Positions 14,420 to 45,430 of a DNA stretch of 64,000 nt are shown here, in pieces. The notes beneath the pieces were generated by a model. The model did not search any database, was not told the origin of the DNA, and saw nothing but the letters and a program-made list of their open reading frames with translations. The stretch lies in contig NZ_PVTX01000001.1 in assembly GCF_003003075.1 (NCBI RefSeq), positions 310,001 through 374,000 of the forward strand, written 5' to 3'. Numbering within the stretch: position 1 is the first letter of the stretch; each line of letters begins with the position of its first letter. A program made the position numbers and the translations under genes. The stretch is from Isoptericola halotolerans (GTDB lineage: Bacteria > Actinomycetota > Actinomycetes > Actinomycetales > Cellulomonadaceae).

Positions 14420-15295
14420 TCAGACGCGGACGAACGTGGGGTTGTCCTGCCACATCTTGCGCTTGACGACGCCGACGCCGGGACGCGCCGACTCGATGAT
14501 CTTGCCGTTGCCGGCGTAGATCGAGACGTGGCCCGGGGTGTAGACGATGTCACCGGGGCGGGCCTGGGACCGCGAGACCGCCTTGCCGGCCCGCTTCTGC
14601 GCGGACGTGGTGCGCGGCAGGCTCTTGCCGGTCGCCTTCTTGTACACGTACGAGGTGAAGCCGGAGCAGTCGAAGCCCGACGACGGGCTGGTGCCGCCGT
14701 AGGAGTAGCGGTAGCCGACGTACCGGTTGGCGACCTGGACGACCTTGGCCCCGCTCGTCTGCTTCGCCTTCACCCGGATGGTGCGGTGCTTCTTGACCTT
14801 GGCCAGGCCGGTGGACTTGGCGGGCACGACGGTCAGGCGGATGCGGTTCTTGCCGACGTCGTAGTGCTTCAGCAACGGCTTCATGCGCACGATGCCGTTC
14901 TTGTTGAGCTTCTTGACGTTGACCTTCTTGCCGTCGACGAAGAGCCGGACCCGGCCCTTCACCGCGTCGCCGCCCTTCGTGGCCTGGACGGTGAACCGGG
15001 GACGGGTGCTGCCCTTGCCCTGCTTGGCGGTCTTGCGCGAGACCGACACCTTGACGACGGGCTTGGAGGTCCGGGCCGTGACGAGCCCGTGGCCGGCGGT
15101 CGAGAGGCCGGCCGTCGAGGTGGCCGCTGCGGTGGACGGGGCGGGTGCTGCCGAGGCCTGGCCGGCTCCGGCGACGAGGGTGCCACCGGCGAGCGCGGCG
15201 GACAGGGCGATGGCGACGGTCGAGCGTCGCAGGCGCGGCATGCGCGCCGTGGTGGCGTCCTGCGGGCGCGCACCACTGTGGTGAGTGATGGACAT
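14420..15295 (-). CDS. secreted NlpC/P60 peptidoglycan endopeptidase
   Basis: A 291-residue exported protein. The start at 15295 has GAGAGGTC upstream. A twin-arginine-poor Sec signal peptide of about 50 residues has a hydrophobic core STVAIALSAALAGGTLVAG and ends near QASA. A lysine-rich beta domain (about 80-180, with RLFVDGKKVNVKKL) may bind wall polymers or resemble an Ig-like repeat. The C-terminal NlpC/P60 domain has catalytic C in GFDCSGFTSYVY and H in TPGHVSIYAG. It should cut peptide cross-links in the cell wall. The 5' leader carries a c-di-AMP riboswitch, a pairing well known for actinobacterial wall hydrolases. Confidence 0.92.
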   Translation of the reverse strand: MSITHHSGARPQDATTARMPRLRRSTVAIALSAALAGGTLVAGAGQASAAPAPSTAAATSTAGLSTAGHGLVTARTSKPVVKVSVSRKTAKQGKGSTRPRFTVQATKGGDAVKGRVRLFVDGKKVNVKKLNKNGIVRMKPLLKHYDVGKNRIRLTVVPAKSTGLAKVKKHRTIRVKAKQTSGAKVVQVANRYVGYRYSYGGTSPSSGFDCSGFTSYVYKKATGKSLPRTTSAQKRAGKAVSRSQARPGDIVYTPGHVSIYAGNGKIIESARPGVGVVKRKMWQDNPTFVRV

Positions 15296-15344
15296 GCTGA
15301 CCTCTCGAGCCTGCGAGATGAGCTGTCGGATGAGGCCGAGAAGT

Positions 15345-15480
15345 GATGGCCCGCCGTCGTGGGACGGCTTAACCCCGAGGGCGGCACGAGTCCGCCCGAA
15401 GAACGTGGTTCTCCCGCTGCTGCCGTGGGTTCGGTGATGCCGGGCCGCCGGCAGCACTCGGCTTGCGGCCCGACCGTTCA
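15345..15480 (-). ncRNA. c-di-AMP riboswitch (ydaO-yuaA class)
   Basis: The minus-strand leader, about 50-185 bases before the NlpC/P60 start, contains the conserved ydaO blocks in order: CACCGAACCCACGGC, GCGGGAGAACCACGTTC and CTCGGGGTTAAGCCGTC, with a GC hairpin (GGGCGG / CCGCCC) between the last two. These match the actinobacterial version found in front of rpf and NlpC/P60 genes. High c-di-AMP normally turns such genes off. Exact boundaries are approximate. A plausible -10 box TAGCGT lies at 15505-15510. Confidence 0.8.
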
Positions 15481-15497
15481 CCCCAGACGTGGGGCGA

Positions 15498-41790: not shown

Positions 41791-43062
41791 CTAGGCCCGC
41801 AGCGCCTGGTCCACGTCCTCGATGATGTCCAGCGGGTCCTCGAGCCCGACCGACAACCGCACGGTCGCCTCCCCGATCCCGACCGCGGCGCGCCCTTCCG
41901 CGCCGAGCTTGCGGTGCGTGGTGGTCGCCGGGTGCGTGACGATCGACTTGGCGTCGCCGAGGTTGTTGGACAGGTCCACGACCCGCAGGGCGTCGAGGAA
42001 GCGGAAGGCGCGCTGCTTCGCCTCGTCCGGGGAGGCGCCGTCGGGCACCGTGAGCTCGAGCGTGACGACGGTGCCGCCGCCGCTCTGCTGGGAGAGCGCC
42101 AGCTCGTGCTGCGGGTGCGAGGGCAGGTACGGGTAGAGCACCCGCGCAACCTCGGCGTGGCCCTCCAGGGCCTGGGCGACCTGCAGGGCGGCCGCGTTCT
42201 GGGCGCGGACGCGCACGTCGAGCGTCTCGAGCCCCTTGAGCAGCACCCAGGCGTTGAACGGGCTGAGCGACGGTCCGGTGTGCCGCAGGAACGTCTGGAC
42301 CGGCCCCGACAGGAACTCCTCGGAGCCGAGGATGGCCCCGCCGAGCACGCGACCCTGGCCGTCGATGTGCTTGGTCGCGGAGTAGACGACGACGTCGGCG
42401 CCGAGCTCGAAGGGCTTCTGCAGGATCGGCGTGGCGAACACGTTGTCGACGACGACGACGGCCCCGGCCGCGTGGGCGAGCTCGGACACGCGGCGCACGT
42501 CCACGAGGTCCTGCATGGGGTTCGACGGCGTCTCGAAGAACACGACGTCGGCTCCGGTGGCGAGGGCCTGCTCCCACTGCTCGGGCACGTGCCCGTCGAC
42601 GAGGTCGACGCGGACGCCCCACTTGGCGAGGATCTCGTCGTAGATGACGTTGGTCGAGCCGAACAGGGCGCGGGCGGAGACGATGCGCGAGCCGCTGGAC
42701 ACCAGTGCCGCCAGCGTGGTGAACACCGCGGACATGCCGCTGGCGGTCGCGTAGCAGGCCTCGGCGCCCTCGATCAGACGCAGCCGCTCCTCGAAGGTGC
42801 GCACGGTGGGGTTGCCGTAGCGCGAGTACATGAACCGCGAGGTCTCGCCGGCGAACGCCGCCTCGGCGTCGGCGGCGGAACCGTACGTGTAGCCCTGGGT
42901 GAGAAAGATGCCCTCGGACATCTCCTCGAAGTCGGAGCGGCGGTGACCGCCGCGCACGGCGAGGGTGGCCGGGCGGACGCCGTCGGGCAGCGGGCCGCGG
43001 CCGGAGCCGCCGGAGCGGGCCGGGTCGGCGCCCGGGCCCGTGGGGACCTCGGTGCCGGTCAC
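41791..43062 (-). CDS. metZ: O-succinylhomoserine sulfhydrylase
   Basis: A 423-residue PLP enzyme of the Cys/Met metabolism family. RYGNPTVRTFEERLRLIEGAEACYATASGMSAV binds the cofactor phosphate, VVVDNVFATPILQKP contains the ring-stacking aspartate, and YSATKHIDGQGRVLGG contains the Schiff-base lysine. The CxxT-like features fit MetZ rather than cystathionine gamma-synthase. It adds sulfide to activated homoserine to give homocysteine for methionine. Its GTG overlaps the rhodanese stop (GTGA). The operon leader carries a SAM-I riboswitch, as expected for a methionine gene. Mycobacteria keep the same rhodanese-metZ pair. Confidence 0.93.
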   Translation of the reverse strand: MTGTEVPTGPGADPARSGGSGRGPLPDGVRPATLAVRGGHRRSDFEEMSEGIFLTQGYTYGSAADAEAAFAGETSRFMYSRYGNPTVRTFEERLRLIEGAEACYATASGMSAVFTTLAALVSSGSRIVSARALFGSTNVIYDEILAKWGVRVDLVDGHVPEQWEQALATGADVVFFETPSNPMQDLVDVRRVSELAHAAGAVVVVDNVFATPILQKPFELGADVVVYSATKHIDGQGRVLGGAILGSEEFLSGPVQTFLRHTGPSLSPFNAWVLLKGLETLDVRVRAQNAAALQVAQALEGHAEVARVLYPYLPSHPQHELALSQQSGGGTVVTLELTVPDGASPDEAKQRAFRFLDALRVVDLSNNLGDAKSIVTHPATTTHRKLGAEGRAAVGIGEATVRLSVGLEDPLDIIEDVDQALRA

Positions 43063-43538
43063 GCCGTGGCCTCGTCGTAGGAGCCCCAGGGCAGGCCGCG
43101 CACCTTCCAGCCCTGCTGGTCGCGGACCCCGCCGAAGCCCGGCGCACCCTCGAAGCCCTCGAGGACGTTGTACGACGGGCCGATGCCGGCGGACGTGGCC
43201 AGCCGGGCCGCACCGATGGAGCGCTGCCCCGAGCGGCACAGGAACACCACCGGACGGTCGGGGCCGACGCCCGCGGTCTCCAGCTCGGCCAGGAACGCGG
43301 GGTTGGGGCGCCCGTCCGCGGTGACCCACTGGCTGAAGACGGTGTTCTTGCCGAGCTCGCCGACGTCGGGGACGCCGACGGTGCGCCACTCGCCGTCCGT
43401 GCGGACGTCGACCAGGACGGCGTCCGGGTCGGCGGCGAGCAGGTCCCACGCCTGCTGCGGGGTGATGTCTCCGGCGTAGCCCTGCGCGGGGCGCGGTTCG
43501 AACGGCGGTTCGGTCGGTGGTTCGAGCGGTGCAGTCAT
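43059..43538 (-). CDS. rhodanese-domain protein
   Basis: A 159-residue single rhodanese domain. DAVLVDVRTDGEWRTVGVPDV is the CH2A-like start and VVFLCRSGQRSIGAARLAT is the active-site loop with the sulfur-carrying cysteine. The ATG at 43538 has GGAGG 7 bases upstream. It is translationally coupled to metZ, so it probably delivers or handles sulfane sulfur or sulfide for homocysteine synthesis (inference). Its SD is adjacent to the P1 stem of the SAM-I aptamer. Confidence 0.9.
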   Translation of the reverse strand: MTAPLEPPTEPPFEPRPAQGYAGDITPQQAWDLLAADPDAVLVDVRTDGEWRTVGVPDVGELGKNTVFSQWVTADGRPNPAFLAELETAGVGPDRPVVFLCRSGQRSIGAARLATSAGIGPSYNVLEGFEGAPGFGGVRDQQGWKVRGLPWGSYDEATA

Positions 43539-43548
43539 GGCACTCCTC

Positions 43549-43685
43549 CCATCGGTCGTGGCGGTAGCACCCACGTCCGGTCCCGCGCCGCTGGCGCCTG
43601 CCTCGCTCGAGGCTCGACGGCGGCGGCCCGGTCCCGCGGGTTGCTGCGGCGTCGACGTGCCACGTCACTCGGCCGCTCGGGATGG
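43549..43685 (-). ncRNA. SAM-I (S-box) riboswitch of the rhodanese-metZ operon
   Basis: The minus-strand leader reads, in order, GAGCGGCCGAGTGAC, GTGGCACGTCGACGCC, CAGCAACCC and, after a long variable P3 arm, GGGTGCTACCGCC. These match the S-box core: GAG-GG-GAGxGA, GGC-GA-CC, GCAACC, GGTGCTA. P1 closes between 43681-43685 (CCATC on the RNA) and 43549-43553 (GATGG). The ribosome site follows directly, so SAM binding probably hides it. A TACGAT -10 box at 43694-43699 would start the RNA at the aptamer. Confidence 0.82.
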
Positions 43686-43755
43686 TCTCCGCGATCGTAC
43701 GACACGGCGTCCGGTGCGCGGGACGCCGGTCTCACCTCGTGGGCGCCCTGCGACC

Positions 43756-43791
43756 GGATCGTCGATCCTGGCCCAGGATGATCGCATCCTG
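43756..43791. promoter_or_regulatory. clustered palindromes between the two riboswitch promoters
   Basis: Two inverted repeats lie side by side: GGATCG-T-CGATCC (43756-43768) and CAGGAT-N6-ATCCTG (43774-43791). They sit just upstream of both divergent promoters and are candidate sites for a sulfur regulator. I do not recognise the motif. Confidence 0.45.
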
Positions 43792-43809
43792 AGACGACGC
43801 GCCCACGTG

Positions 43810-43838
43810 TTGACACCGTCGTCGCGCGCCGGTGATCC
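43810..43838 (+). promoter_or_regulatory. promoter of the SAM-IV leader
   Basis: A consensus -35 TTGACA (43810-43815) is followed after 17 bp by TGATCC (43833-43838), a weak -10. The predicted RNA start, near 43845, coincides with the first base of the SAM-IV P1 stem. Confidence 0.55.
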
Positions 43839-43844
43839 TGTCGT

Positions 43845-43973
43845 CAGGTCATGAGCGCCAGCGCGAAGCCCCGGCTCGCTGGCCGGCAACCCTCCCCTCG
43901 CGGCGGGGTGCCCCGGGTGACGACCTGGCTCCGCGCCGTCCGGCGTCGGGCAAGCGCGGGGAGGTCGCTCCCC
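43845..43973 (+). ncRNA. SAM-IV riboswitch of the class V aminotransferase gene
   Basis: The leader begins CAGGTCATGAGCGCCAGCG and continues with AAGCCCCGGCTCGCTGG, CCGGCAACCCTCC, GGCGGGGTGCCCCGGG and TGACGACCTGG. This order and wording match the SAM-IV class (GGTCATGAG-GCCAGCG-AAGCCCCGGCT-GCTGGCCGGCAACCCTCC). P1 pairs 43845-43850 with 43922-43927. A downstream hairpin GGGGAG/CTCCCC (43958-43973) lies 9 bases before the GAGGAGGA ribosome site and may be the expression platform. The 3' boundary is approximate. Confidence 0.88.
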
Positions 43974-43993
43974 GGGACACTGAGGAGGACCGC

Positions 43994-45430
43994 ATGACCG
44001 CTCTCGCCGAGACCCCCGCCTGTACCGACGTCGACGCCGTCGTCGCGCAGCTCGCGCCCGTCCTGCCGGTGGTGGGCCACGACACGCCCGCCCCGCTGGT
44101 CGACGGTCGCCGCGTCCCGTACGCGAACCTCGATGTCGCCGCGTCGGCCCCCGCGCTGCAGGCCGTGGCCGACCGCGTCACCCGCACCCTGCCGCTCTAC
44201 GCCTCCGTGCACCGCGGCGCCGGCTACCTCTCCCAGGTCTCGACCTCCCTCTACGAGACGGCCCGGCGCACCATCGGCGAGTTCGTCGGCGCGCGGGACG
44301 ACGACGCCACGCTGATCGTGCGCAACACCACCGACGCGCTCAACCTGCTCGCGGGCTGCCTGCCGGCCGCCGACGACGGCGAACCCGGCCGGGTGCTCGT
44401 CCTCGACGTCGAGCACCACGCGAACTTCCTGCCCTGGCAGCGGTCCGCCCGGGCGACCGTGCTGACCGGCCGTGAGACGGCCGCCGCCACCGTCGCGGCG
44501 CTGCGCGACGAGCTGGCGGCGGGTGCCGCCGTCGGGCACGGGTACGCGCTCCTGGCCGTGACCGGAGCCTCCAACGTCACCGGCGAGGTGCTGCCGGTGG
44601 CGGACCTGGTCGAGGCCGCGCACGCGGTGGGCACCCGCGTGCTGCTCGACGGCGCCCAGCTCGTGCCGCACCGCCGCTTCTCCCTGGCCGAGACCGGCGT
44701 CGACTACCTCGCGTTCTCCGGGCACAAGACGTACGCGCCGTTCGGTGCCGGGGTGCTGGTGGGCCGGCGTGACTGGCTCGACGCCGGCACGCCCTACCTC
44801 GCGGGCGGCGGCGCCGTGCGCAGCGTGCGGGTGGACGGGACCGAGTGGCACGACGGGCCTGCGCGGCACGAGGCCGGGTCGCCCAACGTGCTCGGCGCCG
44901 TGGCGCTCGCCGCGGCCTGCGAGGCGCTGGCCGACGTCGACGCGGACGCGCTGCGCGGGCACGAGGACGCCCTGCGCCGGCGGCTCGTCGGGGGCCTGGA
45001 GGCGATCGAGGGCGTCGAGGTCGTGCGGCTCTGGCCCGACGCCGCCGACGCCGTCGGGGTCGTGACGTTCACCGTCTCCGGGTACGAGCCCGGCCAGGTC
45101 GCGGCCTACCTGTCGGCCGAGCACGGCATCGGCGTGCGCGACGGCCGGTTCTGCGCGCACCCGCTGCTCTCCCGGCTCGGGTACGGCGCGGGGGCGGTCC
45201 GGTCGTCCGTGGGCGTCGGCACGGCCGGCGAGGAGGTCGAGCGCCTGGTCGCGGCCGTGGGCGCCCTGGTGGCCGACGGCCCGCAGGCGCGCTACGACGT
45301 CGTCGACGGCCTGTGGATCGTGGTCGACGACCCGCGCCCCGTGCCGGAGGGCTCCGGGCTCGAGGGTCTGCTCGCCACCGCCGGCCCCGGCGGCGACGAG
45401 GCGTTCGGCTGCCTGCCCGAGGACGCCTGA
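43994..45430 (+). CDS. class V aminotransferase, cysteine desulfurase-like
   Basis: A 478-residue PLP protein with the fold of cysteine desulfurases (Csd/SufS/EgtE). HRGAGYLSQVSTSLYETARRTIGEFVGA, FSGHKTYAPFGAGVLVG with the Schiff-base K245, and DGRFCAHPLLSRLG with C387 at the position of the persulfide cysteine are visible. A C-terminal extension of about 60 residues (VVDGLWIVVDDPRPVPEG) is beyond the usual length. The ATG has GAGGAGGA upstream. SAM-IV control places it in sulfur amino-acid metabolism, perhaps releasing sulfide from cysteine or a related compound. A desulfurase activity is likely but not proven. Confidence 0.85.
   Translation: MTALAETPACTDVDAVVAQLAPVLPVVGHDTPAPLVDGRRVPYANLDVAASAPALQAVADRVTRTLPLYASVHRGAGYLSQVSTSLYETARRTIGEFVGARDDDATLIVRNTTDALNLLAGCLPAADDGEPGRVLVLDVEHHANFLPWQRSARATVLTGRETAAATVAALRDELAAGAAVGHGYALLAVTGASNVTGEVLPVADLVEAAHAVGTRVLLDGAQLVPHRRFSLAETGVDYLAFSGHKTYAPFGAGVLVGRRDWLDAGTPYLAGGGAVRSVRVDGTEWHDGPARHEAGSPNVLGAVALAAACEALADVDADALRGHEDALRRRLVGGLEAIEGVEVVRLWPDAADAVGVVTFTVSGYEPGQVAAYLSAEHGIGVRDGRFCAHPLLSRLGYGAGAVRSSVGVGTAGEEVERLVAAVGALVADGPQARYDVVDGLWIVVDDPRPVPEGSGLEGLLATAGPGGDEAFGCLPEDA

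Follow-up and report, generated by a model that had tools for sequence, protein, structure and literature searches.

A divergent pair of SAM-I-type and SAM-IV riboswitches between rhodanese-metZ and a cysteine-desulfurase-like gene in Isoptericola halotolerans and its relatives

The locus and the DNA between the two leaders

In Isoptericola halotolerans, a rhodanese gene followed by metZ on one strand and a cysteine-desulfurase-like gene (CSD) on the other diverge from an intergenic region in which each side opens with the leader of a different SAM riboswitch class (Table 1; the window is the whole stretch of 64,000 nucleotides that was analysed). An earlier note, made from the letters of this DNA, had named two SAM aptamer classes on opposite strands and had assigned the genes behind them, and both the classes and the gene assignments were right (RF00634, RF00162, PF00266, NF005870, PF00581). 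Its figure of about 110 bp for the shared DNA has to be corrected, as 158 bp (43689-43846) separate the aptamers, which also rules out an overlap of the two leaders. Elsewhere in the window, an ordinary c-di-AMP riboswitch (15293-15441, minus strand, 48.9 bits) lies at the 5' end of an ORF with an NlpC/P60 domain (14420-15481, minus strand, PF00877).

Table 1. Features of the divergent locus, in positions of the window
Feature	Position	Strand	Basis or remark
metZ, O-succinylhomoserine sulfhydrylase	41791..43062	-	NF005870, 713.6 bits, cut-off 618
Rhodanese-domain protein	43059..43538	-	PF00581, E 6e-8
Rhodanese ribosome-binding sequence GGGAGGAG	43543..43550	-	sequence
SAM-I-type aptamer (P4-less)	43544..43688	-	leader of rhodanese-metZ; RF00162, own model, covariation
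SAM-I P1 3' strand GAUGG	43549..43553	-	alignment; last two G common to ribosome-binding sequence
SAM-I pseudoknot 3' strand	43557..43561	-	alignments, covariation
P3 tip, 67 nt	43572..43638	-	longest among 36 aligned elements
SAM-I L2 pseudoknot strand	43660..43664	-	pairs with 43557-43561
SAM-I P1 5' strand CCAUC	43681..43685	-	alignments
TACGAT, candidate -10 box of the SAM-I promoter	43694..43699	-	ATCGTA recurrence and by eye
Dyad like GTCTCRC-N3-GYGAGAC	43729..43745		3 mismatches; candidate transcription-factor site
TTGACA, candidate -35 box of the SAM-IV promoter	43810..43815	+	TTGAC recurrence and by eye
SAM-IV aptamer	43847..43962	+	leader of CSD; RF00634
SAM-IV PK-2 3' strand	43955..43959	+	43957-43959 common to downstream hairpin
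Predicted hairpin	43957..43974	+	3' strand CUCCCC can instead cover ribosome-binding sequence
CSD ribosome-binding sequence GAGGAGGA	43982..43989	+	sequence
CSD, cysteine-desulfurase-like gene	43994..45430	+	class V aminotransferase fold, PF00266, E 2.9e-81

The best NCBIfam match of CSD is TIGR01979, at 281.9 against a cut-off of 475.1, and the protein reaches the cut-off of none of the 10 families listed. By its sequence it appears to be a relative of SufS/CsdA on a branch of its own, not a member by the curated cut-off. His142, Lys245 and Cys387, which we take to be the catalytic residues of SufS/CsdA-type class V enzymes, are invariant in 16 sequences. In many CSD-like proteins the C-terminus is a short cysteine-containing tail (e.g. 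FGCLPEDA; 45398-45427 in the window), for which a persulfide relay would be a possible role, and other members end in RPW without such a tail. As the genome encodes two further Cys_Met_Meta_PP enzymes, MetZ need not be the sole route to homocysteine.

The earlier note had placed the start of both RNAs at the first base of P1. The spacing of the two candidate promoter boxes, TACGAT and TTGACA, fits this by eye, and the boxes recur: among 32 distinct stretches between riboswitches, ATCGTA is found at the distance of TACGAT from SAM-I in 15, and TTGAC at the distance of TTGACA from SAM-IV in 29. A sigma-70 consensus scan of 43450-44100, however, finds no promoter-like site and recovers neither box, so both RNA starts are candidates only. 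The dyad lies between the candidate promoters. Of 21 distinct stretches of the family (locus L124 included, repeated stretches dropped), 16 have it with at most three mismatches as against 21% of shuffles, and of 11 distinct pairs of other families one has it as against 13% of shuffles. Upstream of other SAM-I copies of the family it is present in 8 of 13 as against 9% of shuffles, where 21 stretches were taken and 8 had no match to the aptamer pattern, metF being confirmed for the genome of the window only. The individual sites beside these other copies are L192, L193, L195, L197, L201, L203, L205 and L207, each with at most three mismatches, and L002 with four. A transcription factor may thus possibly be layered on the riboswitches, and as the sequences that yielded the motif are also those in which it was counted, the dyad is to be taken as a lead.

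Two known classes on opposite strands

On the plus strand, RF00634 matches the aptamer with 99 bits (E 6.5e-17) against a gathering score of 38, as the earlier note had expected. An alignment of 21 sequences supports P1, P2, P3, P5, PK-1 and PK-2; changes on both sides are seen in 23 of 39 pairs, among them 8 of 10 in P5, 4 of 5 in PK-2 and 2 of 5 in PK-1, and the element thus has the pairing of RF00634. The gene context has parallels: in Streptomyces lividans, where a SAM-I is also present, a cysteine desulfurase gene is annotated with a SAM-IV in front of it (excerpted part of PMC8079986), and a further literature excerpt has a SAM-IV before an O-acetylhomoserine sulfhydrylase in M. avium. 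The copy of the window differs in facing a SAM-I leader across the 158 bp.

The minus-strand element is more difficult to name. It resembles RF00162 (the S box) in P1, P2a/P2b, P3 and the L2 pseudoknot, in a kink-turn-like gap of 3/6 nt in P2 and in the core GCAACC/GGTGCT, and it differs from it in having no room for P4, a P3 tip of 67 nt and a score below gathering. RF00162 is the best clan match on this strand and aligns over the full model length (43546-43688), yet with 19.9 bits (E 0.11) against a gathering score of 44.4, and the weak score goes together with the long P3 tip. By gathering scores, therefore, only one of the two Rfam models matches, an outcome that the earlier note itself had named as speaking against its claim. 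This score is also what favours a degenerate or chance look-alike of SAM-I. That reading is nevertheless very improbable and was rejected, as a model (R2) built from 28 SAM-I-type sequences, none of them from the genus of the window, finds 43544-43686 on the minus strand of the 64-kb window with 72.3 bits and E 3.1e-17, the next best places having E 0.14. In addition, the orthologous element matches RF00162 in all 19 relatives chosen (28.5-61.7 bits; 11 above the gathering score and 8 below; 20 of 53 loci were scanned, the metF locus and these 19), and the pairing covaries.

Across the 28 sequences, standard pairs fill 99.0% of the cells. Changes on both sides occur in P2a, P2b and the L2 pseudoknot, at 5 of 24 pairs and in 26 cells, as opposed to at most one such pair and two cells in slid control versions of the alignment. 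In P2a, GGC/GCC is replaced by GGG/CCC in three loci. One pseudoknot pair alternates between G-C and C-G. In the alignment of 36 rows, 9 show the double change and 7 leave the pair unpaired; in that of 28 rows, the numbers are 8 and 5. P1 and P3 are invariant in the 28 sequences and therefore uninformative in this respect. A hairpin over GGTG...CGCC proposed by RNAalifold was set aside, because its formation would be at the expense of P3 and the pseudoknot.

The P4 helix is absent: in every row P3 and P1 are separated by 12-13 nt in the one alignment and 11-12 nt in the other, five of which belong to the pseudoknot. According to the cited passages of PMC6890682, P4 and a six-nucleotide kink-turn are features of SAM-I, and P5 and PK-2 features of SAM-IV. 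As there is no P4 between P3 and P1, the element is named a P4-less SAM-I-type variant and not plain SAM-I. The known SAM-I/IV variant RF01725, which combines features of both families (PMC2864571, in part), is described in the excerpts of PMC6890682 and PMC2864571 as having P4 and lacking PK-1 and the internal loop of P2. Going by these excerpts, the minus-strand element is the reverse, with a pseudoknot and a gap in P2 and without P4, and no description of a P4-less SAM-I-type variant was found in the passages of the open literature that were searched. The same genome has a second SAM-I upstream of metF-metE (metF by Pfam, metE by eye), which RF00162 matches with 51.1 bits.

Conservation of the pair and turnover of its classes

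In the family sample, the SAM-I model R1, which also counts metF-type copies, and SAM-IV are each found in 134 of 150 genomes. Samples of the order (R1 SAM-I in 113 and SAM-IV in 148 of 248 genomes) and of the phylum (44 and 19 of 198) show both classes beyond the family. The survey of synteny suggested by the earlier note bears out the pair: at least 97 of 103 family genomes listed with both classes hold them divergently within 6 kb, 64 of the 97 within 200 bp and 33 with more than 200 bp between SAM-I and SAM-IV. The 97 are a lower bound, because G003 and G102, which are among the six without, do have the pair in their DNA (L049, L149). When loci are found through the CSD protein (the best 80 of at least 541 confirmed matches), SAM-IV is upstream in 79 of 80, the exception being L267, and R2 finds a divergent SAM-I in 30 of the 80, in 21 of these 30 within 200 bp; in the fetched flank of the other 50, R2 finds none. 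R2 also gives two weak plus-strand matches on the 80 loci. Going by the titles of their records, the 30 loci belong to Isoptericola, Promicromonospora, Xylanimonas, Xylanimicrobium, Myceligenerans, Cellulosimicrobium, Sanguibacter, Cellulomonas and one actinomycete MAG. In two genomes of the same genus as the window (L034, L040), other DNA adjoins the SAM-IV leader, and SAM-I is 3371 and 3706 bp away.

The divergent pair is thus confirmed: two known RNA classes stand in an arrangement that is real, conserved and recurrent, and no description of it was found in the open-licence literature searched. Tandem SAM aptamers of two classes reportedly sit on one mRNA. The pair of the window differs from the tandem arrangement in which two SAM aptamer classes occur together, as set out in the excerpted part of PMC11508383, since it lies on opposite strands and belongs to two mRNAs.

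The arrangement is not peculiar to the two sulfur arms and recurs at transporter and monooxygenase genes. In 22 genomes, which were picked for many matches or a seen pair (a choice that favours pair-bearing genomes) and the rows of which are not independent, the divergent pairs within 400 bp are 20 SAM-I/SAM-IV, three SAM-IV/SAM-IV and no SAM-I/SAM-I, from totals of 136 SAM-I and 103 SAM-IV matches; within 3 kb there are also two divergent SAM-I/SAM-I pairs. Grouped by gene pair (our own grouping, the window included), mixed pairs make up 9 of 12 (P 0.06) and SAM-I/SAM-I pairs 0 of 12 (P 0.009). In this grouping L155 and L157 count as one type, yet their SAM-IV genes differ (a luciferase-family gene and a binding protein), the SAM-I gene of L160 was not found, and the pair on G373 C401 was counted from matches alone. 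With genes called by a first-ORF heuristic, the mixed pairs of relatives are these. Opposite CSD, the SAM-I gene is metF or an oxygenase-like gene. A luciferase-family gene under SAM-I has an ABC ATPase or a periplasmic binding protein as its SAM-IV partner, and a solute-binding protein under SAM-I has either another binding protein or a luciferase-family gene. SAM-I at a rhodanese is joined with SAM-IV at a permease, and SAM-I at an FAD oxidase with SAM-IV at a riboflavin kinase. The mixed pairs at luciferase-family monooxygenase and ABC transporter genes are L155-L158 and L161-L165. The three SAM-IV/SAM-IV pairs (L166, L167, L168), one with a CSD-like gene, lie between CSD and a luciferase-family gene, an amino-acid permease and a binding protein, and an acyl-CoA dehydrogenase and a transporter. 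Up to 13 SAM-I and 7 SAM-IV matches occur in a single genome.

The divergent partner of CSD varies likewise, being rhodanese-metZ, metF, an oxygenase-like gene or a luciferase-family gene that is itself under SAM-IV. At rhodanese-metZ, it is the class that varies. SAM-I precedes these genes in the family of the window and in relatives coded f65. Outside the window's family, the 20 metZ loci considered (a class sample of 197 has matches in 33 other genomes, 20 of which were used) have rhodanese adjoining metZ in 17, and upstream of them are three SAM-IV, no SAM-I and, in 17, neither detected; the SAM-IV-led rhodanese-metZ are in one genome coded f2 and two coded f6. Judged from these sequences, such a turnover argues against a fixed riboswitch class for each arm.

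Predicted switching and the use of two classes

Both leaders would act as translational OFF switches, SAM-I through P1 and SAM-IV through a hairpin next to PK-2, and taken as a whole this is the best explanation and a fairly probable one. Two divergent mRNAs would start at the back-to-back candidate promoters, each opening with its own SAM aptamer. Upon SAM binding, P1 of the P4-less SAM-I aptamer would form, and its 3' strand would take two G of the rhodanese ribosome-binding sequence and thereby turn off translation of rhodanese-metZ. On the other side, SAM binding would stabilise PK-2, whose 3' strand would take 3 nt of the hairpin, and the loss of the hairpin would free an anti-ribosome-binding sequence to cover the ribosome site of CSD. 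A surplus of SAM would in this way lead to less homocysteine synthesis and less desulfurase output.

For the SAM-I side, GAUGG of P1 leads straight into GGAGG; of 36 aligned elements, among them those of the window and of metF, 33 keep this as the motif GATGG(G)AG, and the layout before rhodanese is present before metF in the same genome as well. That the overlap of P1 with the ribosome site amounts to no more than two G counts against the P1 mechanism. For SAM-IV, PK-2 and the hairpin are mutually exclusive by prediction. The predicted accessibility of the CSD ribosome site in the window is 0.58 with the leader tail free and 0.00 with the PK-2 strand blocked, this blocking being done by hand, as energy folding models neither SAM nor pseudoknots. 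Over 21 distinct leader tails, taken only where the aptamer and ribosome-site patterns matched and including many close relatives and two that are not CSD leaders, blocking the first 9 nt, within which the PK-2 strand lies, takes the mean from 0.50 down to 0.16; accessibility is lower in 17 and shows no fall in 4, being higher in 2. The mean fall with shuffled linkers is 0.04 as against 0.34 observed, and in 13 of the 21 tails the observed fall is matched or exceeded by no more than 7% of 40 shuffles.

The SAM-IV arm could instead act by premature transcription termination and leave the ribosome site alone. This would agree with Streptomyces clavuligerus, in which, according to the part of PMC8269248 drawn on here, a class-V PLP gene preceded by a predicted SAM-IV leader shows a premature transcription unit, an indication of termination in that species. 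In the window, a scan of 43450-44100 finds no intrinsic-terminator-like site, the scan being blind to factor-dependent or U-less termination, and the predicted gating of the ribosome site exceeds the shuffled controls; termination is considered rather unlikely.

Translational switching of both leaders leaves the question of why two classes are used. The earlier note had suggested a tuning of affinity or kinetics, by which the classes would be kept for different SAM levels or speeds and the two arms shut in order. The conservation of the mixed pair would fit this, as would the SAM-IV at 79 of the best 80 CSD loci (of at least 541). It is unlikely all the same, because rhodanese-metZ has SAM-I, SAM-IV or neither depending on the lineage, and because SAM-IV in relatives also precedes paralogous Cys/Met PLP enzymes, so that the class does not track one arm. 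The pairs might also be a matter of mere neighbourhood, sulfur genes clustering with their own leaders and divergent mixed pairs having no function of their own. We consider this quite conceivable, if somewhat short of probable: 33 of 97 listed pairs are more than 200 bp apart, 50 of the best 80 CSD loci (of at least 541) have no divergent SAM-I by R2 in the fetched flank, and the excess of mixed gene pairs is modest, but 64 of the 97 listed family pairs are within 200 bp, a dyad is conserved between the riboswitches, and SAM-I/SAM-I pairs within 400 bp are absent from the 22 picked genomes. A further proposal is that mixed pairs are selected as such. Two aptamers of one class placed back to back would make a long inverted repeat, which would be unstable as DNA and the transcripts of which could pair, so that a lineage in need of two SAM switches at one divergent promoter would use unlike classes, with the class being exchanged at an operon, as SAM-IV for SAM-I at rhodanese-metZ, when its neighbours change. 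The 20 mixed pairs, three SAM-IV/SAM-IV pairs and no SAM-I/SAM-I pair within 400 bp speak for such a selection; the genomes were picked, however, the pairs are not independent, and three same-class pairs exist, and we hold it to be improbable. The class difference looks like lineage history, in which a widespread SAM-IV-CSD unit came to lie beside a SAM-I-rhodanese-metZ unit, and unlike classes were perhaps favoured since unlike aptamers form no inverted repeat.

As the Rfam threshold misses the P4-less SAM-I-type copy of the window and those of 8 out of 19 scanned relatives, the SAM regulons of these bacteria are probably under-annotated. With rhodanese-metZ being preceded by SAM-I, SAM-IV or neither depending on the lineage, the turnover of riboswitch classes can be traced directly at one operon, and a conserved pair of two classes for one ligand offers a natural side-by-side test of why several SAM classes persist.
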